Source: a virus. Taken from it: a stretch of DNA of 32,885 nt. Position 1 is the first letter of the stretch; the number at the start of each line of letters is the position of its first letter. The DNA is taken from IMG/VR virus record IMGVR_UViG_3300025102_005982, positions 1 through 32,885 of that record; one strand, written 5' to 3'. The notes beneath the pieces are model-generated. The model had not been told where the DNA came from. It was given only the letters and a program-made list of their open reading frames with translations, and searched no databases. Of the stretch, positions 1,291 to 27,783 are shown piece after piece. The position numbers and the translations under genes are program-made.

Positions 1291-1779
1291 ATGGGAAAGT
1301 ATCAATCAACTAAAGTATTCGATAATTATTCAGTAGCATTAAGACAATGGAAAGCAGCTCATTCTCATTGTGAATTATTACATGGATATGCTTTAAAATT
1401 TAAAGTATGGTTTGAATCTGTAGAGCCAATGGAAGGTGATCAATTAGATGAAATGAATTGGATTATGGATTATGGAGGATTTAAATCTCAAGACGCAGAA
1501 CCAACCCCAGGAAATGGATTAAAGGATTGGATGAATAGTATGTGGGACCATACATTATTAATTGAGAAAGATGATCCTTATTTAGATTTCTTCCAAGGTG
1601 CAGCAATGGAAGGAATAGCTAAACTAGTAGTAATGGATAAAATGGGAGCTGAATCATGTGCCAAATTAGTATATGATAAGTTTAATGATGTAATGTCCAA
1701 GACTGGTGGTGGTAGAGTAAAAGTAGTTAAAGTAGAATGTTGGGAAGCCGACCGTAATTCATCGATATATAGTGAATAA
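1291..1779 (+). CDS. queD: QueD-like 6-carboxy-5,6,7,8-tetrahydropterin synthase
   Basis: A 162-residue member of the QueD/PTPS family, which turns 7,8-dihydroneopterin triphosphate (the FolE product) into 6-carboxytetrahydropterin, the second step of 7-deazaguanine synthesis. Visible marks: the AAHSHC stretch with His24, His26 and catalytic-type Cys27; a zinc-site motif His31-Gly-Tyr33; MDYGGFK (59-65); Asp86-His87-Thr88 for the catalytic dyad; and Glu149 near the end (VECWE) for pterin binding. The usual motif is CxxxHxH, but here the last His is Tyr33. I believe this HGY form occurs in a subgroup of the family, so I do not read it as a dead enzyme. The gene overlaps queE by 8 bases, and folE lies 1 kb downstream. 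Confidence is high for the family and moderate for the exact reaction. Confidence 0.87.
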   Translation: MGKYQSTKVFDNYSVALRQWKAAHSHCELLHGYALKFKVWFESVEPMEGDQLDEMNWIMDYGGFKSQDAEPTPGNGLKDWMNSMWDHTLLIEKDDPYLDFFQGAAMEGIAKLVVMDKMGAESCAKLVYDKFNDVMSKTGGGRVKVVKVECWEADRNSSIYSE

Positions 1780-2545
1780 AAGAATAGAAGATTATAATAA
1801 AGTTTTACCTATATTAGAGGTATATAGATGTGTCCAATCCGAAGGAAGTAGGTTTGGTCGTCCTACAATTGCTGTTAGAACAACAGGTTGTACTCATAGA
1901 TGTTTCTTTGGAGAAGGTGGTTGGTGTGATAGTTGGTATACTAGTATTCATCCAGAAAAAGGTACATTTTGTTTTAATGATATAGTCAAAATATATGACG
2001 AAAATCCACAAATAAAAGAAATGATGTTAACAGGTGGATCACCAACAATGCATCCAGCATTAATTAATGAAATAACTCATTTTGCTCATGAGAGACAAAT
2101 AATAGTTACTATAGAAACAGAAGGTAGTCATTTTGTTAATACTGATTATCCAATAGACTTATTATCTATTAGTCCTAAGTTTTCAAATAGTATTCCTAAA
2201 TTAGGAGAAAAAACACCAGCCGGAAAAATAGTAGATGAACGAATGATAAAAGTTCATAATAGATTAAGAAAAAATACAGAAGCAATAAAAATGATGATGA
2301 GATTTCATGATGATTATCATTATAAGCCAGTATGGGATGGAACAGAAGAAAATTTAAAAGAAATTGAGGAATTAAGAGTTGAATTAAATATTCCAAAAGG
2401 AAAGACATATGTAATGCCAGCCGGAGATACTAGAGAACAATTAATTAAAATGTATCCAATAGTATTTGAAATGGTAGCAGAGCATGGTTATAATATGACA
2501 GGAAGAGATCATATCATAGCATATAATACACAACGAATGGTATAA
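1772..2545 (+). CDS. queE: QueE-like 7-carboxy-7-deazaguanine synthase (radical SAM)
   Basis: A 257-residue radical S-adenosylmethionine enzyme expected to contract 6-carboxytetrahydropterin to 7-carboxy-7-deazaguanine (CDG). The start is GTG, overlapping the queD stop by 8 bases. The first residues contain the QueE-type substrate segment (VYRCVQSEGSRFGRPT). The [4Fe-4S] cysteines are Cys40, Cys44 and Cys52, that is CX3CX7C rather than the plain CX3CX2C; longer spacings are known in QueE. The SAM-binding region has MLTGGSPTMHP (about 84-94), and IETEGS follows. A middle block of charged residues (about 150-180) is longer than in small bacterial QueE proteins. The gene sits between queD and groES and is probably co-transcribed with both. 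Confidence 0.9.
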   Translation: MNKRIEDYNKVLPILEVYRCVQSEGSRFGRPTIAVRTTGCTHRCFFGEGGWCDSWYTSIHPEKGTFCFNDIVKIYDENPQIKEMMLTGGSPTMHPALINEITHFAHERQIIVTIETEGSHFVNTDYPIDLLSISPKFSNSIPKLGEKTPAGKIVDERMIKVHNRLRKNTEAIKMMMRFHDDYHYKPVWDGTEENLKEIEELRVELNIPKGKTYVMPAGDTREQLIKMYPIVFEMVAEHGYNMTGRDHIIAYNTQRMV

Positions 2546-2558
2546 AAAAGGAGAAATT

Positions 2559-2858
2559 ATGAAAATGAAACCTATAGGAGATCAATTATTGTTAAAGCCA
2601 ATAAAAGAAGAAACAAAATCAGAACATGGATTAATATTATCTGCTAATTCATCTACATATGGAAAAGCTGAAGTAATAGCTACAGGTGTAGGTGTTCGTA
2701 CAATGACTGGAGATTTAATTGAAATGTCATGTAAAAAAGGAGATACAGTATTATTACCAGTAAGATTTTTATCAGGCAAAAATGGTAATGAAGTTACATT
2801 AGATGGAAATAAGTATGTATTAGTTAGAGAATCAGAAATAGCAATGAAATCAATATGA
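2559..2858 (+). CDS. groES: Phage GroES-like co-chaperonin
   Basis: A 99-residue protein close to GroES in length and plan: the N-terminal KPIGDQLLLKP strand, a mobile loop with GLIL at 24-27 (the GroES GIVL position that docks on GroEL), GKAEVIATGVG, and a C-terminal KYVLVRESEI strand. It should cap a GroEL ring. A phage-encoded GroEL lies 9 kb downstream, so a matched pair may fold phage proteins such as capsid or tail subunits, as T4 gp31 does with the host GroEL. A clear Shine-Dalgarno sequence (AAGGAG) precedes the ATG. The stop overlaps folE by 4 bases (ATGA). Its place between queE and folE, away from groEL, is unusual. Confidence 0.93.
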   Translation: MKMKPIGDQLLLKPIKEETKSEHGLILSANSSTYGKAEVIATGVGVRTMTGDLIEMSCKKGDTVLLPVRFLSGKNGNEVTLDGNKYVLVRESEIAMKSI

Positions 2859-3517
2859 AAGAAAAATTAAATATAGAACTAGTAAAGTCAGGTTATGCAA
2901 ACGGAGCAGCAGACGGCCGACCTTTAACAGAAGAAGAAAAACAAGCAATGATAACAGATGCAGCTCATGCATTTGGAATGTTTTTGGATGCATTGAAAGT
3001 AGATTGGCGAGATGATCCAAATTCAAATAAAACTCCATATCGAGTAGCTAAAGCATATGTGAGAGACTTATGGGCAGGTAGATATGAAGCTCCTCCTGCA
3101 ATAACAACATTTCCTAGTGATGGATATGATGGTATTGTATTTGAAGGAGGTATTCCATTGACAAGCATGTGTTCACATCATCATCAAACTATTATGGGAG
3201 TTGTACATGTTGCGTATATTCCAGGTAAAGATAGTCATGTGATTGGATTATCTAAATTGAATAGATTAGTAGAACATTTTGGTAGAAGAGGTGCAATTCA
3301 AGAACAATTGACAGTTGCAATTCATCATGCGGTAAATTCAATTATTGAAGATAATAATGGTGTAGCAGTTATGATTGATGCAACTCATAATTGTGTACAA
3401 TGTAGAGGAGTTAAACATGGTGGTGCAAGTATGAAGACAAGTAAATTAACTGGTGCGTTCAAAGATGATCCTGCTACAAGAAATGAATATTATGAATTTA
3501 TAAAAGGTTATAATTAA
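2855..3517 (+). CDS. folE: GTP cyclohydrolase I
   Basis: A 220-residue FolE that converts GTP to 7,8-dihydroneopterin triphosphate, the entry step for both folate and 7-deazaguanine synthesis. Zinc ligands are Cys106 and His109 (motif CSHHH, in place of the usual CEHH) and Cys180. Other family segments are VHVAYIPG, IGLSKLNRLVEHFGRR (about 130-145) and the pterin-binding QEQLT. Length matches the family. The start overlaps groES by ATGA and the last base of the stop is shared with the hpt start. With queD and queE beside it, the likely purpose is base modification rather than folate. Confidence 0.95.
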   Translation: MKEKLNIELVKSGYANGAADGRPLTEEEKQAMITDAAHAFGMFLDALKVDWRDDPNSNKTPYRVAKAYVRDLWAGRYEAPPAITTFPSDGYDGIVFEGGIPLTSMCSHHHQTIMGVVHVAYIPGKDSHVIGLSKLNRLVEHFGRRGAIQEQLTVAIHHAVNSIIEDNNGVAVMIDATHNCVQCRGVKHGGASMKTSKLTGAFKDDPATRNEYYEFIKGYN

Positions 3518-4023
3518 TGGAGATATTAATACCAGAATTTAAGATAGAAAGACGTGTAAGAGCGATGGCTCATAAAATATCAGAAGAACATAAAGCTTCT
3601 GGTAATTTGTTACCACCTGTAATGATTTGTGTATTAAATGGTGGTTATGCATTTTTTGCAGATCTTATGAAAGATATGGGTATTGATGTACAAATGGATT
3701 TTATTAGACCTAAGTCATATAAAGGTAAAGATAATTCAGAAGGAGTTAAATTTACAAAAGAATTAGAAATACATTGCAAAGGTAAAAGAGTTTATATTAT
3801 TGATGATATAGTTGATACAGGTAACACAATGTTTGAAATACTATTAAGAGTTAATGATATGATGCCAACCGATGTTAAAATTGTTACATTACTTAAACGT
3901 AAAGAAAATAGTCCACCAGTAGATCATTTTTGTTTTGAAATAGATAAAGAATGGGTGGTAGGTTATGGATTAGATGATAATTCATTGAAAAGAAATTATA
4001 GAAACATTTATAAAATAAATTAG
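3517..4023 (+). CDS. hpt: Hypoxanthine/guanine phosphoribosyltransferase-like protein
   Basis: A 168-residue type I phosphoribosyltransferase that should join a purine base to PRPP to give GMP or IMP. The PRPP motif VYIIDDIVDTGNT (92-104) has both acidic residues. The N-terminal region shows the HPRT-type VLNGGYAFFADL, the flexible loop SYKG (about 67-70), and the C-terminal base-binding WVVGYGLDD followed by YRN. Length is typical of bacterial Hpt. It is locked into the folE unit by a 1-base overlap. One role that fits the context is return of the guanine freed by the transglycosylase to the GTP pool that feeds FolE; this is inference. Specificity for guanine over hypoxanthine or xanthine cannot be read from the sequence. 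Confidence 0.88.
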   Translation: MEILIPEFKIERRVRAMAHKISEEHKASGNLLPPVMICVLNGGYAFFADLMKDMGIDVQMDFIRPKSYKGKDNSEGVKFTKELEIHCKGKRVYIIDDIVDTGNTMFEILLRVNDMMPTDVKIVTLLKRKENSPPVDHFCFEIDKEWVVGYGLDDNSLKRNYRNIYKIN

Positions 4024-4024
4024 T

Positions 4025-4249
4025 ATGCATATAGGAAAAGAATGGTTATGGATGGATACATTAGCCAAAGGCAAAAAAAAATCTAAAACTAAACAACAAT
4101 TACCTGATGCAAGAAACCACCAAATAATTAGTTTTATCAAATCAGGAATTAGAATAATAGGATATGCTTTACTACCATTTAATTTGGTAGTCTCAGTAAT
4201 TTTCCTTATATTAAGTGAAATAGTAGGAATAATAGAAGAATTAGTTTAA
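4025..4249 (+). CDS. Small single-pass membrane protein
   Basis: A 74-residue protein with a Lys-rich N-terminal part (KGKKKSKTK, about 16-24) followed by a hydrophobic C-terminal half (about 43-70) that could form one or two membrane segments. No family is recognised. By the positive-inside rule the basic N-terminus is predicted to be cytoplasmic. It starts 1 base after hpt and its stop is shared with the polymerase start (TAATG), so it is translationally linked to both. The hydrophobic coding part also holds a predicted promoter for the polymerase. It could be a membrane anchor or an inhibitor of host functions; nothing in the sequence decides this. Confidence 0.7.
   Translation: MHIGKEWLWMDTLAKGKKKSKTKQQLPDARNHQIISFIKSGIRIIGYALLPFNLVVSVIFLILSEIVGIIEELV
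4183..4211 (+). promoter_or_regulatory. Predicted internal promoter before DNA polymerase (TTTGG-N18-TATATT)
   Basis: Inside the small membrane-protein gene, TTTGG (4183-4187) and TATATT (4206-4211) are 18 bases apart, one less than the other sites. The context AATTTGGTAGT matches that of the site before the nuclease gene at 14395. The expected start is near 4218, about 31 bases before the polymerase ATG. Being in coding sequence, it is less certain than the intergenic sites. Confidence 0.45.
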
Positions 4250-6732
4250 TGTATCAAGCAGTAGCATATCAACGACGTACAAATACAGTACATATATGGG
4301 ATGATATTAAAGGTCATCTTAAAATAAAATATAAGCCATATGCATATGCAAAGAATCCTTCTGGTGCATTAACAACATTAGATGGAACTCGTGTAGATAA
4401 AGTATGGAACCCAGATTCCGAAGCTCCTGGATTATATGAATCAGATCTTAACCCTGAGATCAGGACATTAATAGATCAGTATACAGATTCAGATGAAATA
4501 TCTACAGGTCATAGAACATTGTTTATTGATATTGAAGTTGATATTGAAAATGGATTTCCAACTCCAGAAGAAGCTCAAAATGAAATAACTTCTATTGCAA
4601 TTTATGATGAAGCAGGTGATCAAAGATATGTATGGATATTAGATAAAGAAGGAGTGGTGCCATCTCGTAAAGAAGGTAATTTTGAGACAATATCTTGTCC
4701 AGATGAAGCTTCATTATTATCTAAATTTCTAATAACATATTACGAGATAATGCCTACTTTAATTACAGGTTGGAATATTGACTTTTTTGATATTCCATAT
4801 CTTTATAATAGAATATGTCATGTATTAGGAGAAAAACAAGCAAGAACATTATCTCCTATTAAAGATGTTATTTGGTTAAAGCATAGAAATAGATATAGAA
4901 TATCTGGAGTATCATGCTTAGATTATATGGCATTATATAAAAACTTTACTTATAATGAAGAGTCAAGTTATTCGTTAGAAGCTATCTCTCAAAAAGAATT
5001 GGGTAAAGGTAAAATGAAGTATGAAGGTACTTTGGATGATTTATTAAAAAATGACATTCAAGGTTATATCGATTACAATATGAATGATGTTGACTTGGTT
5101 TGGGAGATAGATCAAAAAATGAAGTTAATGGATTTAGCTCGTGGTATATGTCACAAAGGCCATGTTCCATATGAAGACTTTTTATTTCCGACTAGATATT
5201 TAGATGGTGCGGCATTAACATATATGAAACGATTAGGAATTGTAGCACCTAACAAACCTAGACATGATGAGATAAAACAAGTAGATCTATTAGGAGCATT
5301 CGTAAAGGCACCAAATCCAGGTAGATATAAATGGGTATATGACCTTGATTTAACATCTCTATATCCTAGTATCATCATGACACTTAACGTTTCACCAGAA
5401 ACTAAAATAGGAAAGGTTGAAGATTTTGATGGACATAAATATATTAAAAATGTTCCAATGGAATATTCAATGGGTGATGATGGTTGGGAATCACCAGAAA
5501 AATTAAGATCTTATTTAACAGAAAATAAATATTCTATTGCTGCTAACGGCGTTGTATATGATACAAATCAAAAAGGTTTTATATCATCTATACTTGAAAA
5601 ATGGTTTGCTGAAAGAGTTGAATATAAAAACTTAAGAAAAAAGTATGAAAAGGAAGGTGATCCTGCAAAAGCTGAATACTTTGATAGATTACAATTAGTA
5701 ACTAAAATTCTTCTTAATTCATTTTACGGAGTATTAGGTAATCCAACATTTAGATTTAATGATCCTGATAATGCAGTAGCCATTACAAGTACAGGCCAAC
5801 AATTGATTAAATTTACAGCAAACATTGGAAATAAATTTTATACAAGAGAATTAAATAAGAAAGAAGATTATTGTATATATACAGATACAGATTCAACATT
5901 CTTTTCATCATTACCAATTATAAAACATAGGTATCCAAAGTTTGATATTACAGATGAAAAATGGATGGCAGATAAAACAATTGAAATTGCAGATGAAGTA
6001 CAGGATTTTATAAATAGATCGTATGATATATATGCTGATAAGTTTCATAATGTAAATACTCATAAGTTTGATATTAAGCAAGAAAATGTTGCAAAAGCTG
6101 GTTTATGGATTGCAAAGAAAAGATATGCTCAATGGATTATTAATATAGAAGGACATACAGTATCTAAACTAGATGTCAAAGGATTAGATGTTGTAAGGTC
6201 TTCCTTCCCACCAGCCTTTAGAAAATTTATGGCTGAGGTACTAGAAGATATATTAAATGATATTTCAAAAGAAGAATTAGATGAAAAGATTCTAAACTTT
6301 AAAGAGTACATGAAAACATTACCGTTAATTGATGTCATGTTTCCAATTGGTGTTAAAAATGTAAAGAAGTGGCAACGTAAAGGTGATGGAATATTTGCAG
6401 TAAGAATGAAAGGAACGCCAGTACATGTTAAGTCAGCATTGAATTATAATGATATGTTAAAACATCATAATGTAAAAAATGTTCGAGAAATCATTAATGG
6501 CGAAAAAATAAAATGGACATATCTCAAGGCCAATAATATGGGCTTAGATACAATAGCAATGAAAGGATTTGAAGATCCACCTCCAATAGAAAAATTTGTG
6601 CAAGACAATATAAACTATAATAAAGTATTTACGTCTGCATTTGCTAACAAATTAAATGATTTCTATGGAGCAATGAATTGGGGTAAAATCCCAGAGAATA
6701 ATAATTTAGGTAAATTTTTTGCATTCGGCTAA
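4249..6732 (+). CDS. Family B DNA polymerase (T4 gp43-like)
   Basis: An 827-residue replicative polymerase with a 3'-5' proofreading domain; T4 gp43 has 898 residues. Exonuclease motifs: Exo I with Asp94-Ile-Glu96, Exo II NIDFFD (176-181), Exo III YNMNDVD (276-282). Polymerase motifs: A, DLTSLYPSI (367-375); B, KILLNSFYG (486-494); C, YTDTDS (544-549), with the two catalytic Asp; and KKRY (623-626). All catalytic residues look intact. The C-terminal tail (LGKFFAFG) has the short hydrophobic/aromatic form of a clamp-binding peptide and probably docks on the sliding clamp encoded at 9992. The start overlaps the previous stop as TAATG. It is complete in one gene, with no intein or split visible. 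Confidence 0.97.
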   Translation: MYQAVAYQRRTNTVHIWDDIKGHLKIKYKPYAYAKNPSGALTTLDGTRVDKVWNPDSEAPGLYESDLNPEIRTLIDQYTDSDEISTGHRTLFIDIEVDIENGFPTPEEAQNEITSIAIYDEAGDQRYVWILDKEGVVPSRKEGNFETISCPDEASLLSKFLITYYEIMPTLITGWNIDFFDIPYLYNRICHVLGEKQARTLSPIKDVIWLKHRNRYRISGVSCLDYMALYKNFTYNEESSYSLEAISQKELGKGKMKYEGTLDDLLKNDIQGYIDYNMNDVDLVWEIDQKMKLMDLARGICHKGHVPYEDFLFPTRYLDGAALTYMKRLGIVAPNKPRHDEIKQVDLLGAFVKAPNPGRYKWVYDLDLTSLYPSIIMTLNVSPETKIGKVEDFDGHKYIKNVPMEYSMGDDGWESPEKLRSYLTENKYSIAANGVVYDTNQKGFISSILEKWFAERVEYKNLRKKYEKEGDPAKAEYFDRLQLVTKILLNSFYGVLGNPTFRFNDPDNAVAITSTGQQLIKFTANIGNKFYTRELNKKEDYCIYTDTDSTFFSSLPIIKHRYPKFDITDEKWMADKTIEIADEVQDFINRSYDIYADKFHNVNTHKFDIKQENVAKAGLWIAKKRYAQWIINIEGHTVSKLDVKGLDVVRSSFPPAFRKFMAEVLEDILNDISKEELDEKILNFKEYMKTLPLIDVMFPIGVKNVKKWQRKGDGIFAVRMKGTPVHVKSALNYNDMLKHHNVKNVREIINGEKIKWTYLKANNMGLDTIAMKGFEDPPPIEKFVQDNINYNKVFTSAFANKLNDFYGAMNWGKIPENNNLGKFFAFG

Positions 6733-6752
6733 TAATAAATAGGAGATAAGAT

Positions 6753-7100
6753 ATGGAAACATTATTAACAGTGCTAATTACATTAATGGTTGTGGCTTTA
6801 CTAGGTGCAGGTATTAATTTGGTTAGGTTGAACCGAAGAGCTGATGAGCTTGATACATTAAAATTAGAAATGATTGATCTTCATGATAATCTTAATAGAT
6901 TAATTGAAGATGTCGATAGAAACTTAAGTCGACAAATAGACGATTTGCAAAAAGATACTTTAGACCGAATTGAAAAATGGGTAGCATCAACAGATAGAAG
7001 ATTTGATAAGACTTATAATGATATTCGACTTACAGTAGGCAGATTAAAAACATTAGATGAAACAATTAATCCAAACCAGGATTTTTTGAAAAATAAGTAA
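6753..7100 (+). CDS. Membrane-anchored coiled-coil protein
   Basis: A 115-residue protein with one N-terminal membrane helix (about 4-24) followed by a long charged helix (about 30-100) rich in Asp, Arg, Leu and Ile with coiled-coil spacing. It resembles no enzyme. The layout, a short membrane anchor with a cytoplasmic rod, recalls DUF948-like or spanin-like proteins, but there is no lipobox and no evidence for lysis. A Shine-Dalgarno sequence (TAGGAGAT) precedes the ATG. It follows the polymerase by 20 bases and is probably on the same transcript; a new promoter starts right after it. It may tether the replication machinery to the membrane, which is speculation. Confidence 0.75.
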   Translation: METLLTVLITLMVVALLGAGINLVRLNRRADELDTLKLEMIDLHDNLNRLIEDVDRNLSRQIDDLQKDTLDRIEKWVASTDRRFDKTYNDIRLTVGRLKTLDETINPNQDFLKNK

Positions 7101-7107
7101 TAAATGA

Positions 7108-7137
7108 TTTGGTTGTTTGCAAAAAATTTACTATATT
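7108..7137 (+). promoter_or_regulatory. Predicted promoter (TTTGG-N19-TATATT)
   Basis: TTTGG (7108-7112) and TATATT (7132-7137) are 19 bases apart in the gap after the coiled-coil gene. The expected start is near 7144, about 13 bases before the ATG at 7157, with an A-rich leader lacking a Shine-Dalgarno sequence. It probably drives the run from 7157 through the transglycosylase, clamp, clamp loader and GroEL. Confidence 0.68.
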
Positions 7138-7156
7138 AAATTAAAATAAAAAAGTT

Positions 7157-7576
7157 ATGTACGGAAAAAGTTATTGGTATGGAAAAGAAGTAGAAGGTAG
7201 ATTATCTGATATAGAAACAGTATTTGTTAGAGGACAAGTACCTAAAAACTATAAAGATTATCCACATATCTATTTTACAATTGAATATATTGAAATGGCA
7301 TGTGTTCATGGTAATTGGGATGAAATACATAGAATCCTAGAAACTAAACAATATGTTACAATAGAAGCTAATGAAAAGACAATGGAGAAAATTCCAATGT
7401 CTATTTTCAATAGAGCACATGTTATATATAGAATACCAGATATACATGTCGCAAAATTAAAAAAGACAGATACATTATCTATAGATGCTGGTTGGTATAG
7501 AGTACACCAGATAATGAAATGTAACTTAATGGAAATTAATCCAGATGATTATAAATTTGATAGAATAAAGGAATAA
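7157..7576 (+). CDS. Hypothetical protein
   Basis: A 139-residue protein that I do not recognise. It appears to be a mixed alpha/beta soluble protein with many Tyr and Ile residues and strand-like stretches (HIYFTIEYI, YVTIEA, HVIYRIPDIHVAKL). No nucleotide-binding motif, Cys pair or membrane segment is visible. It begins a transcription unit and is followed after 4 bases by a glycosyltransferase and then the DpdA-like gene, so a role near DNA modification is possible but unsupported by any motif. The N-terminal GKSYWYGKE is not a Walker A motif: the GK is not preceded by the needed glycine-rich loop. Confidence 0.72.
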   Translation: MYGKSYWYGKEVEGRLSDIETVFVRGQVPKNYKDYPHIYFTIEYIEMACVHGNWDEIHRILETKQYVTIEANEKTMEKIPMSIFNRAHVIYRIPDIHVAKLKKTDTLSIDAGWYRVHQIMKCNLMEINPDDYKFDRIKE

Positions 7577-7580
7577 AAAT

Positions 7581-8792
7581 ATGAAAAGAAATCTATTTTA
7601 CTTTGGCCTAGAGCCATTAAAAGCAAGGTATACATATCAATTATGTAAAGAATGGATGCCGGCTACATTTGAACGGTATGATGAAAAATTAAATTTTATT
7701 GATGTAGAAGGAGAATTTGATCCTGATTGTGAGATTAAAGTTGGTGCAGTATTAGATGCAATTGGTAGAGGAAAATATAGTTTATCTCAATGCCAAAACT
7801 TCTTACAAATGCTGTATGATGACAAAGTCCAAGACGGTGATATAATATTCTTGCAAGACTATTGGACACCAGGAGTCGAAGCCATTTGGTATGCATTAGA
7901 CCTGTATGGATATAAGAATGTAAAGGTATATACTATGTGTCATGCTCAATCAGTTGATGAATATGATTTTACATATCCTATGAGAAATTGGATGAGACCA
8001 TATGAATTAGGTTTAGATAAAAGATTAACTGGTATATTTGTAGGAAGTTCTATACATAAAGAACAATTAAGAGCAGCTGGATTTGAAGCTCCAATACATG
8101 TTGTATCATTACCAATTCATAAACAAGCAACATTAGAAAAACTTCCAGCTGGTGAATATAAAAAGAAAAATACAATTGTATATTCATCTAGATTAGATAA
8201 GGAAAAGAATCCTTTCTTTATGATGAAAGTTGCAGAAGCATTCTTAAAAAATCATCCAGATTATGAATGGCATGTAACTACATCAGGTAAAAAATTCAAA
8301 TCAATGTTACCAGGTGTAATTGATGCATTAGAAAAACTAGCTGAAGAACAACCAAGATTTAAATTAATGACTGGATTAACAAAAGAAGAATATTATACAG
8401 AATTAGCAACTTGTAAAATTCAATTTAATTCTGCATTACAAGATTATGTATCATGGACTGTTATTGAATCAACTACTTTTGGAGCTGATGTAGTATTTCC
8501 ATACTTTAGAAGCTTCCCAGAATTTATAGATGCAGATAGAATGTATAAGCCATTTGATGTAAAAGATGCATTAGAAACAATTGAAGATGCATTAGAAACA
8601 CCTAAAGTACATTCACATATAGTTGATACATCAGATCTAGGAAGACAGATGGAAGGATATATTATTGCTAATGATTATGAGAATGAATTATGTGTATGGC
8701 ATGAAAAAGAATTATGTGAATCTTTATTACAACAAGATGTAGATGCAAAGATTTTAGAACAGTATGAACAAGCTTGGGGAGAAGAAAACTAA
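7581..8792 (+). CDS. GT-B fold glycosyltransferase (GT4-like)
   Basis: A 403-residue protein with the plan of a two-domain GT-B glycosyltransferase. The second domain begins with a typical TIVYSSRLDKEKNP segment (about 198-210). The donor-binding region near 285-316 (SWTVIESTTFGADVVFP, then RSFPEFI) corresponds to the usual end of the nucleotide-sugar site, with Glu295 as the likely ribose-contacting acid. The full EX7E motif is not clear. It lies 1 base before the DpdA-like gene, 7 kb from the glycan cluster, among replication genes. It may therefore act on something tied to DNA, such as a modified base as T4 glucosyltransferases do, or on a protein. Donor and acceptor cannot be read from the sequence. 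Confidence 0.75.
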   Translation: MKRNLFYFGLEPLKARYTYQLCKEWMPATFERYDEKLNFIDVEGEFDPDCEIKVGAVLDAIGRGKYSLSQCQNFLQMLYDDKVQDGDIIFLQDYWTPGVEAIWYALDLYGYKNVKVYTMCHAQSVDEYDFTYPMRNWMRPYELGLDKRLTGIFVGSSIHKEQLRAAGFEAPIHVVSLPIHKQATLEKLPAGEYKKKNTIVYSSRLDKEKNPFFMMKVAEAFLKNHPDYEWHVTTSGKKFKSMLPGVIDALEKLAEEQPRFKLMTGLTKEEYYTELATCKIQFNSALQDYVSWTVIESTTFGADVVFPYFRSFPEFIDADRMYKPFDVKDALETIEDALETPKVHSHIVDTSDLGRQMEGYIIANDYENELCVWHEKELCESLLQQDVDAKILEQYEQAWGEEN

Positions 8793-8793
8793 T

Positions 8794-9978
8794 ATGAAAG
8801 ATTTAATTTATTATCCGTCATTGTCTGCAGGAGGTTGTGCAGGAGACTTTAAAAAGAATAAAGAAGTTAAACCAGGATTATCATGTAGATTTTATGATAA
8901 AGATTTTCCTGAAAGATGGAGACATCCTTATTTTCTAATTACAGCAGGTCATCATTATAAATGGGCAGATGCAAGACAAAGATATGGATTAGAAGACGAT
9001 GTACTAGTATTAGGTGATTCAGGAGGATTCCAATTAGCTACAGGAGCAATTAAATGGGATCCATCATTTAAGAAAACTATATTTGATTGGTTAGAAGCAA
9101 ATTGTGATTTAGGAGTTAACTTAGATATTCCACCAAGAGCAAAATATGATGGTAAGTTCCATGAATGTATGGATATTAGTTATGATAACTTTAAATATTT
9201 TGCAGATAATCAATCTGGTAAATGTAAGTTCTTAAATGTTATTCAAGGTAACAATGTTGAAGAATATGAAGCATGGTATCAAAAAATGAAAGACTTTGAA
9301 TTTAATGGTTGGTGTATTGGAGGTGCTCAAAAAAGAGTAACCATGTTTATGTCTGCATTAGTTCCTATGATAAAGAATAGAGAATTTGAAAAAGCAAGAA
9401 ATCAATTTATACATGTATTAGGTATATCAAAAATTTCAGATTTCTTTATGTTAAGCTTCTTTCAAAAGATGGTAAACAAGTATCATGGAGGTAGAATACA
9501 AATATCAACAGATTCAAGTTCTCCTGGGTTATATCCAGTATATGGAACTTATTTGCATTCACCTCAATTAAGTAAAATGACCTTTACTGATTTATATTTT
9601 CCAAAAGGAGAAAATCTTCCTTATAACGCAGATGATTTAGTTCCTAATCCATTAGGACATCCAGTATCTGAAGGAATGACATTTGGCGAAGTATCAAATT
9701 ATAAAGGTGATGTAACAATGAAAATGACATTGAATAATTTATTTGTATTTAACGAAACTGTTAAGCAAGTAGAAGAAATAGTAAAATGTCATAACGAGCT
9801 ATTACAAACAGTAGTTCCAAGAGACTTCTATGCAATACTAATGAGTATGGAAGAAATGTTCCAAGATCCGGATAAAGCTATTCATATCTATAATAAGAAT
9901 AGACAATTATATGATAGGTTTGGAGGTAGTACAAGAGATTTAGTAAACAATGAAGTATTTAATCAATTTTTCGAATAA
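8794..9978 (+). CDS. dpdA: DpdA-like DNA guanine transglycosylase
   Basis: A 394-residue member of the tRNA-guanine transglycosylase superfamily, most likely of the DpdA branch that swaps guanine in DNA for a 7-deazaguanine. Motifs: DSGGFQ at 75-80 (Asp75 as the base-recognition/acid residue), NLDIPPR with Asp111, VIQGN (149-153), IGGAQKR (about 175-181), HVLGIS (207-212), and STDSSSP with Asp240 as the probable nucleophile. The C-terminal CxCxxC...H zinc site of bacterial tRNA-type enzymes is not seen, which fits DpdA. An upstream start at 8764 would lie inside the previous gene; the ATG at 8794, 1 base after that stop, is preferred. FolE, QueD and QueE in the same window can supply the base. 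Confidence 0.85.
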   Translation: MKDLIYYPSLSAGGCAGDFKKNKEVKPGLSCRFYDKDFPERWRHPYFLITAGHHYKWADARQRYGLEDDVLVLGDSGGFQLATGAIKWDPSFKKTIFDWLEANCDLGVNLDIPPRAKYDGKFHECMDISYDNFKYFADNQSGKCKFLNVIQGNNVEEYEAWYQKMKDFEFNGWCIGGAQKRVTMFMSALVPMIKNREFEKARNQFIHVLGISKISDFFMLSFFQKMVNKYHGGRIQISTDSSSPGLYPVYGTYLHSPQLSKMTFTDLYFPKGENLPYNADDLVPNPLGHPVSEGMTFGEVSNYKGDVTMKMTLNNLFVFNETVKQVEEIVKCHNELLQTVVPRDFYAILMSMEEMFQDPDKAIHIYNKNRQLYDRFGGSTRDLVNNEVFNQFFE

Positions 9979-13523: not shown

Positions 13524-13970
13524 ATGAAGAAACCAGCTACTATATTTGATCATATTGCAAATTTAACTCATAAAAAGAAATCATGGGATAAATTAACAGA
13601 GGCAGACCAAAAATCATTTGCCCCTTATATTATAAATAGATGGTTATCAATGCATCCAGATCTTATTGAAATTATTGACATGTTTCAACAATATACAATT
13701 GGACCATTAAGTAAAAAACATGTATATCAATTATACTATGATATTTTACCAAAGGCAAATGTAAGAGCTAAATATATTAAAGGTAAGAAATCAAATAAAT
13801 ACAACAAAGAACTTGTATCATTTATTAAAGATTATTATCAAGTTAGTTCAATAGAGGCCGAAGATTATATTGATATATTAATTATGACAACTGATGGTAT
13901 ACAAAGCATAGTTTCTGCATTACAATCATATGGTAAAACAGAAAAGGAAATAAAAAAGATATTAAAATGA
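13524..13970 (+). CDS. Clamp-loader small subunit (T4 gp62-like)
   Basis: A 148-residue protein whose opening (IFDHIANLTHKKKSWDKL) and following SFAPYIINRWLSMHPDLIEI match what I recall of gp62-family proteins. T4 gp62 has 187 residues, so this is a shortened form. It has no ATPase motif. The rest is helical and basic, with LPKANVRAKYIKGKK near the middle. It should be the single non-ATPase subunit of the clamp loader beside four copies of the gp44-like protein. It begins 1 base after groEL and overlaps the next gene by ATGA, so all are probably on one transcript. Confidence 0.8.
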   Translation: MKKPATIFDHIANLTHKKKSWDKLTEADQKSFAPYIINRWLSMHPDLIEIIDMFQQYTIGPLSKKHVYQLYYDILPKANVRAKYIKGKKSNKYNKELVSFIKDYYQVSSIEAEDYIDILIMTTDGIQSIVSALQSYGKTEKEIKKILK

Positions 13971-14359
13971 AAGCAATCAAAGATAGACCAAGAGTAGACT
14001 TTAAAGAAAAATCATCAACAGGAAATGAAGCAGTAGATTATTGTGAAACAAATTTTCCTGAAACTTGTAATGAATTTAAGAAAATACTTGAAGAACAATA
14101 CAAAATGTTTTGTAAAAAACAAAAGAATTATGGGCCAGGTAATATATCGGTAGGAACTAATTTACAAACTCCTGATGATGTTAAATTATCATTGACTGGA
14201 TTATGGTTTCGTATGAATGATAAAATACAAAGATTAAAGCAATTAATTGTTCTTGGTCATAAAGATGAAGTAGGAGAATCTGAACAAGATACATTCCAGG
14301 ATTTATCAATATATGGTATTATAGCTCAAATAGTTTCTGCAAACAAATGGGGTAAATAA
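13967..14359 (+). CDS. DUF1599/Nmad1-like (nucleotide modification associated) protein
   Basis: A 130-residue all-helical protein resembling the DUF1599 family, also called nucleotide modification associated domain 1. Matching positions: KNYGPGN (53-59), RMNDKIQRLKQL (82-93), and ESEQDTFQDLSIYGII (104-119), the acidic motif at which MazG-like NTP pyrophosphatases bind magnesium. By analogy it may hydrolyse or select a nucleotide, such as unmodified or modified dNTPs, in a phage with altered DNA. That role is inference from the family name and acidic motif. It overlaps the gp62-like gene by 4 bases and ends the replication run, just before a new promoter. Confidence 0.65.
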   Translation: MKAIKDRPRVDFKEKSSTGNEAVDYCETNFPETCNEFKKILEEQYKMFCKKQKNYGPGNISVGTNLQTPDDVKLSLTGLWFRMNDKIQRLKQLIVLGHKDEVGESEQDTFQDLSIYGIIAQIVSANKWGK

Positions 14360-16209: not shown

Positions 16210-17667
16210 ATGGAACCAATAAAGTTACCAAAGTTAAGAAAGATTGACCCAAACAAGCCAAAGAAAAAGAAAATCTTGTTGTTATCAGATGATTTAAGAA
16301 TGCATTCTGGTATCGCAAATGTATCAAGAGATTTTGTATTTGGAACAATTGATAAATATGATTGGGTTCAATTAGGAGCAGCTGTAAAGCATCCAAATGA
16401 AAATCAAGTTTTTGATATATCAGAAGAAGTTGGAAAGAAAATGAATGTAGATGATGCATATTGTAAGATATACGCATCTTCAGGATATGGAGATCCACAA
16501 AAATTATTTGAATTAATTCGTATTGAACAACCAGATGCGATTTTACATTTTACAGACCCTAGATTTTGGGTTTGGTTATATTCGATTGAACATCAGATTA
16601 GACAACATACTCCTATTATGTATTATAATATATGGGACGATTTACCTTATCCATTCTGGAATGAGCCGTTCTATGAGTCATGTGATTTAATCATGAATAT
16701 TTCTAAACAAACTAATAATATTGTAAAAAATGTTTTAAGAAAATATCCAAAACCAGATTGGGCAGTTCAATATGTACCTCATGGAATAAATGGAGATGAG
16801 TTTTATCCAATTGATTCATTACATTCAGAGTATAAGCAGTTTAAACAAACAGAACAAGGATTTAAGCGTGATAAGGATGTTGATTTTATTATTTTCTGGA
16901 ACAATAGAAACATTAGAAGAAAACAACCTGGTGATTTAATTTTATCATATAAAACTTTTTGTGATTCATTACCTAAAGAAAAAGCCGATAAATGTATGTT
17001 ACTTATGAATACTCAAGCTAGAGATGATAATGGCACGGATTTAGTTGCAGTTAAAAATGCACTTTGTCCAGATTATAAAGTTCATATTACAAATGGAGGA
17101 GTTCCGTTACAGCAATTAAATTTCTTTTATAATATGGCCGATGTAACAGTTAATATTGCTTCAAATGAAGGATTTGGATTATCAGGAGCTGAATCATTAA
17201 TGACAGGTACGCCTATTGTTAATAATGTCACCGGAGGCCTCCAAGACCATATGAGATTTGAAGATGATAATGGTGATTGGATCGATTTTAGTACTGATAT
17301 TCCTAGTAACCATGATGGAACATATAAGAAACATGCAAGATGGGCAAAGGCAGTATTTCCAACTAATAGATCTGTACAAGGTTCTCCATTAACTCCTTAT
17401 ATATTTGATGATAGAGTTGATTTTAGAGATGTTGCAAAAGCAATTAAATATTGGTACGATATGTCAGTAGAAGAAAGAAAAGAAAGAGGTATGGAAGGAC
17501 ATGATTGGGTTTGTGGAGATGAATCAAATATGTCAGCAAAAAATATGAGTTCATTGTTTAAAATTCATATTGATAAATGTTTAGAAAGTTGGACACCTAG
17601 AAAAAGGTTTACGTTATATAAAACAGGACCTAAAGTAAAAATTGAAAAATCAGGAGTAATAGCATGA
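16210..17667 (+). CDS. Glycosyltransferase, GT4-like
   Basis: A 485-residue GT-B glycosyltransferase. The acceptor domain opens with KILLLSDDLRMHSGIANVS after a Lys/Pro-rich N-terminal tail. The donor domain has IIFWNNRNIRRKQP (about 227-240) and the EX7E motif Glu320-Glu328 within ASNEGFGLSGAESLMTG, which binds the nucleotide sugar; GTPIVNNVTGG follows. The tail begins with MEPIKLPKLRK, and a related KLPKL peptide ends the next protein. It starts the glycan cluster with a good Shine-Dalgarno sequence and overlaps the next glycosyltransferase by 4 bases. The probable role is to add a sugar to a phage or host glycan in the cytoplasm; donor and acceptor are unknown. Confidence 0.88.
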   Translation: MEPIKLPKLRKIDPNKPKKKKILLLSDDLRMHSGIANVSRDFVFGTIDKYDWVQLGAAVKHPNENQVFDISEEVGKKMNVDDAYCKIYASSGYGDPQKLFELIRIEQPDAILHFTDPRFWVWLYSIEHQIRQHTPIMYYNIWDDLPYPFWNEPFYESCDLIMNISKQTNNIVKNVLRKYPKPDWAVQYVPHGINGDEFYPIDSLHSEYKQFKQTEQGFKRDKDVDFIIFWNNRNIRRKQPGDLILSYKTFCDSLPKEKADKCMLLMNTQARDDNGTDLVAVKNALCPDYKVHITNGGVPLQQLNFFYNMADVTVNIASNEGFGLSGAESLMTGTPIVNNVTGGLQDHMRFEDDNGDWIDFSTDIPSNHDGTYKKHARWAKAVFPTNRSVQGSPLTPYIFDDRVDFRDVAKAIKYWYDMSVEERKERGMEGHDWVCGDESNMSAKNMSSLFKIHIDKCLESWTPRKRFTLYKTGPKVKIEKSGVIA

Positions 17668-19016
17668 TGAAACCGTTAATAGTAGTACAAGGACCAGTCG
17701 CAACTAGATCAGGATATGGAAATCATACAAGAGATTTAGTTAGAAGTATAATTGCAATGGACAAATATGAACTTAAAATCATATCATTACCATGGGGACA
17801 TTGTCCTATGGATGCATTAAATGTACAAGATCCAAAGGATAAAATGATTATTGATTGTTTTTTAAGACAACAATTAAATAGACAACCAGATATATTTATT
17901 CAAGTTTCAGTTCCAAATGAGTTTAATATGGGACCTGATGGAAAAGAAATAAAGCCAGGTAAAATAAATATTGGTGTTACTGCAGGAGTAGAAACAGATG
18001 TTTGTCCAGCCGAATTAATATTAGGATGTAATAGAATGGATTTAGTTATTGCAACTTCAAAACATTCAGCTGATATAATTATGAAATCTACATATGATAG
18101 AATGGACAACAATACTCAGAAAAAAATTGATGAACTTAAATGTACTACTCCAATAAAAGTATTACATGAAGGATTAGATTTAGAAGTATATAAGAAAACA
18201 GCTGAATTAGATAGATCAATAGTAGATACATTAAATGAAATTCCAGAACAATTTTGTTTCTTATCGGTAGGGCATTGGATAACTGGTGTAATGGGAGAAG
18301 ATAGAAAAGATATCGGAATGACTATTAAGACATTTGCTGAAACATTTAAGTCTACAGGTTCAGGAAAAAGACCAGGTTTAATTCTTAAGTCTAGTGGTGC
18401 AACATTTAGTATTATTGATAGAGATCAGATACAATCAAAGATAGAAGATATATTAGCACCATATGGAGATAAAGCCCCAAATGTATATTTACTCCACGGA
18501 GATTTATCAGATAATGAAATGAATTCATTATATAATCACCCAAAGGTAAAAACAATGATATCATTTACAAAAGGAGAAGGATATGGTAGACCGTTAGCAG
18601 AATTTGCTGCAACAGGAAAACCAATAATGGCATCAAATTGGTCAGGCCAATTAGATTTCTTACATCCTGATTATTGTACATTGTTACCAGGTAAATTAAC
18701 AAAAGTTCATAAATCAGCTGCAAACCAATTTTTAGTAGAAGGTGCACAATGGTTTACTGTACAATATAGTTATGCAAGTAAAGTAATGAAAGATATGTTA
18801 AAGCATTATAAAAAATATCTAGAAAAGTCTAGGAAGATGCCACAACATATGAAAAATAATTTTAGTATGGAAAAGATGACAGAAAAGTTTTCTGAAATGA
18901 TAGGTAATTTAGATATTCCAGTAGCTCCACAAAAAATGGAATTAAAGTTACCAAAATTAAATAAAAAATCACCACCTAAAATTAATTTACCAAAATTAAA
19001 AAAGGTTAAAATATGA
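17664..19016 (+). CDS. Glycosyltransferase, GT4-like
   Basis: A 450-residue GT-B glycosyltransferase. The N-terminal VVQGPVATRSGYGNHTRDL is the usual glycine-containing acceptor loop, and SVGHWITG (about 201-208) starts the donor domain. The EX7E motif is Glu305-Glu313 within TKGEGYGRPLAEFAATGKP, followed by MASNWSGQLDF. The last 26 residues (about 425-450) hold two LPKL repeats in a Lys-rich tail (KLPKLNKK, then NLPKLKK), like the tail at the start of the preceding protein. The two genes overlap by 4 bases and may form a heteromeric pair, or both may bind a common partner through these tails. The start could be the first or second of two adjacent ATGs. Confidence 0.87.
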   Translation: MMKPLIVVQGPVATRSGYGNHTRDLVRSIIAMDKYELKIISLPWGHCPMDALNVQDPKDKMIIDCFLRQQLNRQPDIFIQVSVPNEFNMGPDGKEIKPGKINIGVTAGVETDVCPAELILGCNRMDLVIATSKHSADIIMKSTYDRMDNNTQKKIDELKCTTPIKVLHEGLDLEVYKKTAELDRSIVDTLNEIPEQFCFLSVGHWITGVMGEDRKDIGMTIKTFAETFKSTGSGKRPGLILKSSGATFSIIDRDQIQSKIEDILAPYGDKAPNVYLLHGDLSDNEMNSLYNHPKVKTMISFTKGEGYGRPLAEFAATGKPIMASNWSGQLDFLHPDYCTLLPGKLTKVHKSAANQFLVEGAQWFTVQYSYASKVMKDMLKHYKKYLEKSRKMPQHMKNNFSMEKMTEKFSEMIGNLDIPVAPQKMELKLPKLNKKSPPKINLPKLKKVKI

Positions 19017-19534
19017 AAAAAGAAACAACAAAAATAGAATTCGCAGAAGATGATTCTAAGTTAAATTTAGAATATGATGATGTATCACCATTTACAGGTA
19101 ATAAATGTGTATTAATTGAAGCTGATGTAAAAACTGGAATGGAGTCTCGTATATGCATGGAAACAGGATATACAACTACTGATAGATGGGCTGTAGGAAG
19201 CCGAGCATTAGATCAATATGAAACAATGATAACTCAATTATATAAAGATACAAAGTTTACAGATCAAACATTAAATCAAGTATGGTATTTAGCTACCATG
19301 AGAAATCATTTAGCATGTTTATATGCAGATGGAACATCTAAAGATGATTATGTATGGAAAATATCATATGTAAAAGCATTAGATGCAGATGAAAGATTAA
19401 AATACCCAGTAGATGGACAAGAAGGACAATACCATACTCATAAAGTAGATATTGAAAATGCAATATCATTTGATAAAGATGATTTCAAAAGTTGTATAGA
19501 TAAATTTTATGAAACAATGGGAGAATCAATATAA
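19013..19534 (+). CDS. Hypothetical protein in glycan cluster
   Basis: A 173-residue acidic soluble protein that I do not recognise. It has a GNKCVLIEADVKTGMESRICMETGYTT-like beta region at about 29-56, with two Cys that do not form a CxxC pair, and then helical segments with aromatic residues. There is no transferase motif, signal peptide or membrane helix. It sits between two glycosyltransferases with 4-base and 1-base overlaps (ATGA, TAATG) and so is tightly co-translated with them. It may be a virion or head protein that the neighbours modify, or an accessory subunit; neither is shown. Confidence 0.75.
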   Translation: MKKETTKIEFAEDDSKLNLEYDDVSPFTGNKCVLIEADVKTGMESRICMETGYTTTDRWAVGSRALDQYETMITQLYKDTKFTDQTLNQVWYLATMRNHLACLYADGTSKDDYVWKISYVKALDADERLKYPVDGQEGQYHTHKVDIENAISFDKDDFKSCIDKFYETMGESI

Positions 19535-20160
19535 TGAAAATAAGTTACGCAATAACAGTATGCAATGAGCATAAAGAAATACAAAAGTTATTAACATTTT
19601 TATTTGAACATAAACGACAACAAGATCAAGTTGTAGTTCAAATGGATATGAATGCAACTAAAGAAGTTATAAATGCATGTGAACAATTTGAATCAAAACA
19701 AGCATCTGAATATAGTTTAATTCAACATTCATTAGATAAAAACTTTGCTGCATACAAAAATAATTTAAACAAGGCATGTCATGGAAGTTGGATATTTCAA
19801 ATAGATGCAGATGAAATTCCAAATGAATATTTAATGGAAGCACTTCCTTTTATCCTAGAAGCAAATGATGATACAGAAGCATTTTGGGTGCCAAGAGTAA
19901 ATACAGTAGCAGGAATTACCGATGAACATATTGCCAAATGGGGTTGGAGAGTAGATGATCAAGGTTGGGTAAACTTTCCAGACTGGCAAATGAGAATATA
20001 TAGAAACAAAGAAGAAATATATTGGATAAAGCCAGTACATGAACAGTTAAAAGGTTATACTAAATTTGCAAATCTTCCCCCAGAAGAGAAGTTTGCATTA
20101 TATCATCCAAAAGATATTGGAAGACAAGAAAAACAAAATGCATTCTATGACACAATATAA
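19534..20160 (+). CDS. Glycosyltransferase family 2-like
   Basis: A 208-residue GT-A protein. The start (MKISYAITVCNEHKEI) is the family 2 nucleotide-binding strand and loop, and the metal-binding DxD is Asp91-Ala-Asp93 followed by Glu94 (FQIDADEIP). The later PDWQMRIYRNKEEIYW and HEQLKGY segments are typical of waaE/KdtX-like family 2 enzymes. It is shorter than the 250-300 residues of common members and lacks a membrane segment. The first ATG overlaps the preceding stop by 1 base, and the end overlaps the methyltransferase gene. It transfers a sugar from a nucleotide donor to an unknown acceptor. Confidence 0.85.
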   Translation: MKISYAITVCNEHKEIQKLLTFLFEHKRQQDQVVVQMDMNATKEVINACEQFESKQASEYSLIQHSLDKNFAAYKNNLNKACHGSWIFQIDADEIPNEYLMEALPFILEANDDTEAFWVPRVNTVAGITDEHIAKWGWRVDDQGWVNFPDWQMRIYRNKEEIYWIKPVHEQLKGYTKFANLPPEEKFALYHPKDIGRQEKQNAFYDTI

Positions 20161-20776
20161 AAAATATCCAAGATCATTAACAGAATTTAAAACATCAAAC
20201 TATACTCCAGGAGATCATTTTACTATTCCAAAGAAATGGGATAATTTTACAATGCATGCTCCATTATGGAAAAAGACGTTAGATCATTTTTTTGCTAACG
20301 GTAAAGATTTAAAATTTTTAGAATTAGGATCTGGTAATGGTTTATGTGCAAATTATATGTTAGATAATTATGATTGTCATGTTGATACAATTGATATAGA
20401 TGAAAACCATATAGTTCCAGAAGCTAATGTATCATATATAGTTAGTACAATAAGCAATCTGCAGCCATTTATTTCTGCAGGAAGGTGTTCATTTCATCAT
20501 ACTACCACAAAAGAATTTTTATTATCTAACCAAGATAAACAATATGATTTTATATATGTTGATGCATCTCATGATAGAGAATGGGTATTATATGATGCAG
20601 TAAATGCATTTCCATTATTAAAAGATGATGGACTAATGATCTTTGATGATTATGGTATGAAGGATTGTAAAAAAGGAGTAGATGCATTTCTAACTTGTTT
20701 TGATAAATTTGTAGAAATATTTTATGTTGATTGGCAGTTAATGCTAAGAAAAAAACAAAATTTACAGACTCAATAA
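20147..20776 (+). CDS. Class I SAM-dependent methyltransferase
   Basis: A 209-residue methyltransferase with the SAM-binding motif FLELGSGNGLC (57-67, Glu59 to Gly65), an acidic residue after the second strand (IDIDEN), and the FIYVDASHDREWVLYDAVNAFPLLKDDGLMIFDDYG run of the Methyltransf_24 type, in which Asp139 and the Asp167-Asp168 pair may bind a metal. It probably O-methylates a sugar or a catechol-like group. An earlier ATG at 20138 is possible and both overlap the upstream gene; starts further upstream are rejected because they lie deep inside it. The stop shares a base with the epimerase ATG. The glycan context favours sugar methylation. Confidence 0.82.
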   Translation: MTQYKKYPRSLTEFKTSNYTPGDHFTIPKKWDNFTMHAPLWKKTLDHFFANGKDLKFLELGSGNGLCANYMLDNYDCHVDTIDIDENHIVPEANVSYIVSTISNLQPFISAGRCSFHHTTTKEFLLSNQDKQYDFIYVDASHDREWVLYDAVNAFPLLKDDGLMIFDDYGMKDCKKGVDAFLTCFDKFVEIFYVDWQLMLRKKQNLQTQ

Positions 20777-21621
20777 TGAATATATTAGTAACAGGAGGAT
20801 TAGGATTTGTTGGCTCTACATTAGTTGATGAATTGTTACATGACGATCATACCGTTACAGTTATAGATAACTTATCATCAGAATCTAGTTCAGAAGAATA
20901 TAAAAATCAGTATGTAGAATATATAATTGATGATATTAGAAATATTGATAATTTAGATTTACCTAAATTTGAAGTTATATTTCATTTAGCTGGACTTGCA
21001 AGGATACAACCAAGTTTTGAATCACCATTAGATTATATAGATGTAAATGTTAATGGTACAGCAAAGATATGTGAATTTGCAAGGAAGTGTAATGCAAAAT
21101 TAATTTATTCAAGTTCTAGTTCAATAAACAATGGTGAATATAAAACTCCATATACATTTTCAAAATGGGGAGGAGAAGAAATACTTAAAACATGGATTCA
21201 ATGTTATAAATTAGATGCAACAATTACTAGATTTTATAATGTATATGGACCAAGAGAACCACAAACAGGAAATTATGCAACGGTAGTTAGAAAATTTATT
21301 CGAAAATATAAGAATAATGAACCATTAACAATCGTAGGTGATGGAAAACAAAGAAGAGACTTTACTCACGTAGATGATATCGTATCAGGTCTAATACAAG
21401 TAATGGAAGCAGGTAACAAAGGAGAACTATATCATTTAGGTAGAGGCATAAATTATTCTATTAATGAATTAGCAAATATGTTTACAGACGCAAAAATTGA
21501 ACATGTTCCTTTAAGAAAAGGAGAGGGAGAAGTTACATTAGCTGATTATGAAACGACATTTAAAAAATTAGGTTGGTCAGCCAAAAAAAATTTAATTGAT
21601 TATATAAAAGGAATTGAGTGA
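20776..21621 (+). CDS. NAD-dependent sugar-nucleotide epimerase/dehydratase
   Basis: A 281-residue extended short-chain dehydrogenase. GGLGFVG (7-13) is the NAD-binding motif, VIDNLSS follows at about 29-35, and the catalytic residues are the Ser cluster (112-116) and Tyr126xxxLys130. NVYGPREPQ (155-163) and GDGKQRRDFTHVDD are family signatures. The likely substrate is a UDP- or GDP-sugar, for epimerisation or 4,6-dehydration; a UDP-glucuronate-type 4-epimerase is one option, but specificity is not readable. The ATG at 20776 (MNILVTGG) is preferred over an earlier in-frame ATG inside the previous gene. It supplies an activated sugar to the surrounding transferases and overlaps the next gene by GTGA. 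Confidence 0.92.
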   Translation: MNILVTGGLGFVGSTLVDELLHDDHTVTVIDNLSSESSSEEYKNQYVEYIIDDIRNIDNLDLPKFEVIFHLAGLARIQPSFESPLDYIDVNVNGTAKICEFARKCNAKLIYSSSSSINNGEYKTPYTFSKWGGEEILKTWIQCYKLDATITRFYNVYGPREPQTGNYATVVRKFIRKYKNNEPLTIVGDGKQRRDFTHVDDIVSGLIQVMEAGNKGELYHLGRGINYSINELANMFTDAKIEHVPLRKGEGEVTLADYETTFKKLGWSAKKNLIDYIKGIE

Positions 21622-24700: not shown

Positions 24701-24730
24701 TTAGTTTAATTGAAAAAATTTTTATATATT
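24701..24730 (+). promoter_or_regulatory. Predicted promoter for leaderless mRNA (TTAGT-N19-TATATT)
   Basis: TTAGT (24701-24705) directly after the amidotransferase stop and TATATT (24725-24730) are 19 bases apart. The predicted start is near 24737, which is the ATG of the next gene at 24736; no ribosome-binding site fits in between. It splits the glycan cluster into two transcription units. Confidence 0.6.
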
Positions 24731-24735
24731 AGAAT

Positions 24736-27780: not shown

Positions 27781-27783
27781 GAT

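Follow-up and report, generated by a model that had tools for sequence, protein, structure and literature searches.

A candidate QueC-independent cassette for 7-deazaguanine hypermodification of phage DNA, with a QueD-fold protein and a DpdA-linked glycosyltransferase

The IMG/VR record IMGVR_UViG_3300025102_005982, which at its full length of 32,885 bp constitutes the window analysed here and is a fragment of a marine tailed phage, encodes FolE, QueD and QueE together with a DpdA-type transglycosylase, and it raises the question of which modified base might be made and placed in DNA by a phage for which no QueC is in view. The conversion of GTP to 7-carboxy-7-deazaguanine (CDG) by FolE, QueD and QueE is established biochemistry. 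The initial annotation of this stretch named the three enzymes and the DpdA-like protein, noted the lack of QueC, and proposed that CDG or a derivative made without QueC is inserted. The window genes were identified by gene calls and family searches; the family matches and the intact TGT active-site motifs bear out the gene assignments, and a PF06508 search likewise finds no QueC in the window. The answer that appears likely on balance is a QueC-independent cassette for 7-deazaguanine DNA hypermodification, composed of FolE, QueD and QueE, a protein family here called S1, DpdA, and a glycosyltransferase, GTx, which lies one base upstream of DpdA and was overlooked in the initial annotation.

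The absence of QueC from the window is by itself weak evidence, because the record is a fragment. The search was extended to 11 contigs of close relatives, including the 127-kb contig G001 of the window lineage, and to 29 larger related contigs that encode S1 and reach 245 kb, and QueC was found in none of them, while the same search was positive in 12 of 14 control genomes. For contigs such results denote absence from fragments, whereas the isolate genomes are complete: QueC was not found genome-wide in the phages ACP17, Phosso, PA5oct and phiST, and X1 gives just a 16-bit sub-threshold match. The possibility that the PA5oct protein gp064, annotated as a tRNA-lysidine synthetase, is an unrecognised QueC was rejected, since it is a TilS-like member of PF01171. 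QueC is present in nine isolates, namely seven other DpdA phages together with CP220 and CAjan.

Comparison of the clusters brought out S1, a family of 120 amino acids (PHROG 17812, annotated as function unknown) whose AlphaFold model has a QueD fold (pLDDT 93.8). The top 22 PDB matches returned for this model by Foldseek are all QueD/PTPS structures, with E. coli QueD at 1.8e-5 and a probability of 1.0. In 46 aligned sequences His18, His37, His39, an SCE motif containing the invariant Cys, and an ED-x-ENG motif are invariant, and the three-histidine site probably binds a metal. S1 and QueD are alike in their T-fold and in the three histidines that would bind metal, but the CxxxHG motif of QueD (CxxxHGH or CxxxHGY, with the catalytic Cys) is missing from S1 and the same genomes carry a separate QueD gene; S1 was therefore not classed as QueD.

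The distribution of S1 is complementary to that of QueC. S1 was found genome-wide in ACP17, X1, Phosso, PA5oct and phiST, in G001 and in contigs of the far group, and it was not found in any of the nine QueC-bearing isolates (PhiXhv-12, GR7B, Illi-2, Vibrio 2.275, NCTB, immuto, phiSM, CP220 and CAjan). Among seven further isolates with S1, QueC is absent in six. QueC is thus lacking in 11 of the 12 isolates that encode S1, the other being ambiguous, and in none of the nine that do not (Fisher p=3.4e-5, a value to be taken as a guide only, because it ignores phylogeny and the selection of the phages by homology, and the lineages are related). The pattern spans phages of Bacteroidetes, Proteobacteria, cyanobacteria and Firmicutes. 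Since S1 replaces QueC, and since its fold is one that binds pterin- or purine-like molecules, CDG is its probable substrate. Decarboxylation is the favoured reaction because it is the simplest that proceeds without ATP, although we give it only an even chance. S1 may be DpdL, the CDG decarboxylase reportedly predicted by Cui et al. in 2023 (NAR); the same study is said to have reported phages with dCDG and dDG, whose bases likewise branch from CDG before QueC, and S1 lies within the Que cluster of phiST (CGPG_00067). The tubercidin pathway was considered as a source of an S1-like decarboxylase and rejected, because the decarboxylase there is of the UbiD type (PMC6112128).

The transglycosylase carries the TGT hallmarks, namely D-S-G-G-x-Q, LDxP, QG, HxLG and the I-S-x-D nucleophile motif, which are invariant or nearly so in its family; in a 15-member alignment the catalytic motifs are invariant from D75 to D240. 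Its longest open reading frame begins further upstream, but the true start is probably at 8794, because residue 11 is where the alignment with almost every homologue begins. The window protein scores below every curated cut-off (about 18.7-18.8 bits for NCBIfam DpdA, where 200 are needed, and 18.2 for TgtA), and judged from its sequence it belongs to the TGT/DpdA superfamily and lies outside the curated bacterial NCBIfam DpdA subfamily. As a single sequence it matches nothing in the PDB and a profile is needed: family members match TgtA at 4.5e-11, and the top PDB match of the family profile is the archaeosine TGT 1iq8 (2.7e-6). By profile score archaeosine TGT has a small advantage over bacterial DpdA, with both far under the cut-off. 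By phmmer the window protein is not similar to the DpdA proteins of immuto, phiST or phiSM; its nearest counterparts, with about 25% identity, come from jumbo phages, PA5oct and Phosso among them. Purifying selection on DpdA (dN/dS 0.04-0.07) is the strongest or near the strongest among the genes compared, and the protein is 79-99% identical across the window-group loci, even where the clamp drops to about 53%. It is encoded with 7-deazaguanine synthesis genes in about 70 window-group loci and in many other phages. It is predicted to act on DNA, and modification of the DNA with a 7-deazaguanine is very probable.

GTx is predicted to be a GT4-type enzyme. Its AlphaFold model (pLDDT 93.4) has a GT-B fold, for which the best Foldseek matches are MshA and BshA (4e-13 to 1e-12), and a tetrahydrobiopterin glucosyltransferase (9v0l) is among its GT4 relatives. 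R204, K209 and E296 are invariant or at least 90% conserved and, by analogy with GT4 enzymes, would belong to the donor site. GTx resembles MshA and BshA in its fold and in these conserved R/K and E positions; it differs in that identity is only 12-14% and in that its acceptor is only predicted. In most S1 phages, across unrelated lineages, GTx adjoins DpdA, S1 or both. It directly follows DpdA in PA5oct and directly precedes the transglycosylase in Xanthomonas phage X1, where FolE and QueE are nearby; the order in Acidovorax phage ACP17 is QueD-FolE-S2-DpdA-GTx-S1-QueE (annotated coordinates were used for DpdA and GTx there, both being masked by antisense open reading frames); and in Sinorhizobium phage Phosso it accompanies S1, FolE and QueE, with DpdA elsewhere. 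This neighbourhood makes it somewhat probable that GTx acts on the modified base. Upstream of GTx lies a 139-amino-acid protein, u139, with no assigned function. Its alignment to the S2 family of other cassettes by hhalign gave P about 0.005 at first and P=3.6e-6 once intermediates were added, and u139 probably represents S2 in the window. In the loci L294 and L295 (contigs G045 and G033), identity to the window proteins is 77-81% for PolB and 52-53% for DpdA, but only 20-23% for the GTx at the same position, so the transferase appears to have been replaced at this site.

A scan of viral contigs in IMG/VR yielded 79 loci, about 70 of which share the order QueD-QueE-GroES-FolE-HGPRT-PolB-u139-GTx-DpdA-clamp-RFC as far as the contigs reach, although a few of these lack the hypoxanthine/guanine phosphoribosyltransferase (HGPRT) or the small genes. 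Given this conserved order and the purifying selection on DpdA, the cluster is not a chance assembly. G001 carries S1, GTx, DpdA, FolE, QueD and QueE and no QueC, and the contigs G033, G034, G043 and G045 combine S1 with u139-GTx-DpdA, again without QueC; these five contigs suggest that the window phage's own genome would also contain an S1 gene. More than 570 S1 relatives occur in IMG/VR. The cluster DpdA-S2-S1-GTx-FolE-QueE is nearly constant in 80 freshwater loci (S1 in 79, S2 in 77, DpdA in 72, GTx in 67), and in other phages the same genes are rearranged, and their reading frames often overlap. S1, GTx and DpdA are also found on bacterial contigs of Magnetospirillum and Aurantimonas.

The direct observations concern which genes are present, their motifs and folds, their synteny, and how S1 and QueC are distributed over the genomes sampled; from these we infer all chemistry past CDG, the order in which insertion and glycosylation take place, and a role in protection. 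In the proposed pathway FolE, QueD and QueE would make CDG from GTP, S1 would process CDG in place of QueC, preferably by decarboxylation to 7-deazaguanine, DpdA would exchange guanine in the viral DNA for the resulting base, and GTx would add a sugar to it, with HGPRT possibly recycling the guanine released by DpdA. The sugar-bearing base would probably serve as protection from host nucleases. The initial suggestion of CDG or a derivative made without QueC is partly supported, and more strongly than by the window alone, given the lineage-wide absence of QueC and the two candidate enzymes, S1 and GTx.

Several points weigh against this proposal. Neither the chemistry nor the identity of the base in the DNA can be deduced from sequence. 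The S1 family has no significant match in the PDB by sequence, and its link to QueD consists of the structural model, a weak hhalign result and one weak Pfam match. The window fragment itself yielded no S1, and in G001 the S1 gene lies about 40 kb from the cluster. Vibrio phage D479 has both S1 and a partial 33-bit match to QueC, and Xanthomonas phage PhiXhv-12 has a divergent GTx and a QueC-domain protein with no S1. S1 occurs without GTx in phiST, Ahp1, RHph_I1_18, Bakedbeans, D479, MA9V-3 and Roos, and GTx is therefore optional. Finally, GT4 enzymes normally need a hydroxyl-type acceptor, and CDG and 7-deazaguanine offer none at C7, save through an ester or a C-glycoside.

The absence of GTx from phiST and six more S1 phages also bears on the possibility that CDG itself (giving dCDG) or the product of S1 (giving, for example, dDG) is inserted with no further step, while GTx acts elsewhere, on another base, a pterin or a surface glycan. 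The separate glycosyltransferase block at 16-32 kb of the window and the presence of the tetrahydrobiopterin enzyme among the GT4 relatives agree with such a role. That GTx alone among the window glycosyltransferases matches far-group homologues, and that it adjoins DpdA or S1 in unrelated lineages, tells against it, and we regard this explanation as unlikely. Since S1 and GTx are both present in the lineage, dCDG without further modification is less probable, though possible.

If instead the phage made CDG and the QueC of the host completed preQ0, then the DNA would contain ordinary dPreQ0 or dADG. Mycobacterium phage Bipper lacks QueC alone and host participation has been discussed (PMC6884629), but S1 takes the place of QueC in 11 of 12 isolates, which is more than a simple lack of QueC, and the recurrence of this pattern in phages of four host groups leaves the host-QueC explanation with little credence. 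The better profile score for archaeosine TGT could indicate that the genes serve to raise queuosine or archaeosine in tRNA, on which the transglycosylase would then act; against this, the CxCxxC segment retained in relatives such as GR7B is missing from the window protein, no tRNA genes were found in G001, G009 or the window, there is no QueC although both tRNA pathways require it, and the transglycosylase gene lies between a DNA polymerase and a clamp in a replication cluster. A role in tRNA is accordingly very improbable.

The proposed DNA-modifying cassette can also be compared with known systems. It is like the phage DpdA systems of Hutinet et al. 2019 (PMC6884629) in that FolE, QueD, QueE and a TGT-type transglycosylase for base exchange in DNA are encoded together, and it differs from them in the absence of QueC and the presence of S1 and a GT4 enzyme. 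Flavobacterium phage vB_FspM_immuto (NC_055915) has the QueE closest to that of the window (66% identity, compared with 64% for Cellulophaga phage phiST) and has a phosphoribosyltransferase, GroES and GroEL in the same region, but it possesses QueC, QueF, a formyltransferase and a short DpdA of 264 amino acids, and neither S1 nor GTx. The scheme of Cui et al. is said to contain no linked glycosyltransferase. No report of a DpdA-linked glycosyltransferase was found in the literature searched, which misses many subscription papers, and within that literature such an enzyme seems to be undescribed.

Table 1. Genes of the putative modification cluster in the window.
Feature	Coordinates	Strand	Evidence
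QueD (6-carboxytetrahydropterin synthase)	1291..1779	+	PF01242 40.6 bits; phrog_2389 115.6 bits
QueE (CDG synthase, radical SAM)	1772..2545	+	phrog_2076 168 bits
FolE (GTP cyclohydrolase I)	2855..3517	+	PF01227 153.5 bits
HGPRT (hypoxanthine/guanine phosphoribosyltransferase)	3517..4023	+	PF00156 84 bits; TIGR01203 139 bits
u139 (139 amino acids, function not assigned, upstream of GTx)	7157..7576	+	70-96% identity in most window-group loci
GTx (putative GT4-type glycosyltransferase, GT-B fold)	7581..8792	+	PF00534 E=6e-5; AlphaFold; Foldseek
DpdA-type transglycosylase	8794..9978 (longest open reading frame from 8764)	+	TGT motifs; NCBIfam DpdA/TgtA 18-19 bits; 1iq8 profile match

The window QueD has a CxxxHGY motif, as in the QueD proteins of immuto and phiST, and the radical-SAM cysteines and the GG(S/E)P motif align in QueE (Table 1). 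Two versions of QueD occupy the same position within the window group, with 82-85% and 42-44% identity to the window protein (loci L018, L036, L040, L051, L052 and L062). The interval from QueE to DpdA also contains GroES, HGPRT and a family-B DNA polymerase; phosphoribosyltransferases are also found within the Que clusters of immuto and BUCT-ZZ01. The window has no megablast match among isolate phages. Signal peptides of the 'AQ' and 'SCSEE' types in G001, together with the flavophage-like QueE, suggest a host in the Bacteroidetes. Elsewhere in the window are a clamp-loader A-like protein (13524-13970; PF16790, below cut-off), a protein with a DUF1599 nucleotide-modification-associated domain (13967-14359), and a glycosyltransferase-rich block (16210-32089) that is perhaps a phage-encoded glycan pathway. 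The idea that an asparagine-synthetase-like (AsnB-like) gene (23372-24700) encodes a CDG amidotransferase was dropped, since the gene lies within this block, away from the Que genes.

Related arrangements occur in other genomes. Synechococcus phage BUCT-ZZ01, an isolate that has a laboratory host (Synechococcus elongatus PCC 7942), has a complete cassette with a second, weak GTx-like gene beside FolE (L334:2358-6515). Amycolatopsis anabasis encodes DpdA-like, S1, QueD, QueE, FolE and terminase-like genes in a row (L310:7117-12243), and this locus and those of Magnetospirillum and Aurantimonas are probably prophages. In Streptomyces sp. NEAU-Y11 an S1-like gene is followed by QueD, FolE and a deaminase-like gene (L324:7971-10114), possibly a deazapurine metabolite cluster. 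PhiXhv-12 has in a row (L124:2735-5969) its QueC-domain protein (about 510 amino acids, with the annotation glutamine amidotransferase), a BshB-type protein resembling GlcNAc-malate deacetylase, and the divergent GTx, an arrangement that suggests decoration of an archaeosine-like base with GlcNAc that is then deacetylated.

S1 and GTx provide two concrete candidate genes for the QueC-less branch of phage 7-deazaguanine chemistry, and they are tied to the well-studied isolates PA5oct, Paride, X1, ACP17, phiST and BUCT-ZZ01. It is conceivable, although we advance this more tentatively, that hundreds of phages of many hosts carry a glycosylated 7-deazaguanine in their DNA, made without QueC by way of S1 and completed by a DpdA-coupled GT4 enzyme, with the transferase being swapped in order to vary the sugar. 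DNA glycosylation is best known so far on hydroxymethylated pyrimidines; if the proposal is true, then it would be extended to a deazapurine, as a new protective modification widespread in marine and freshwater phages.

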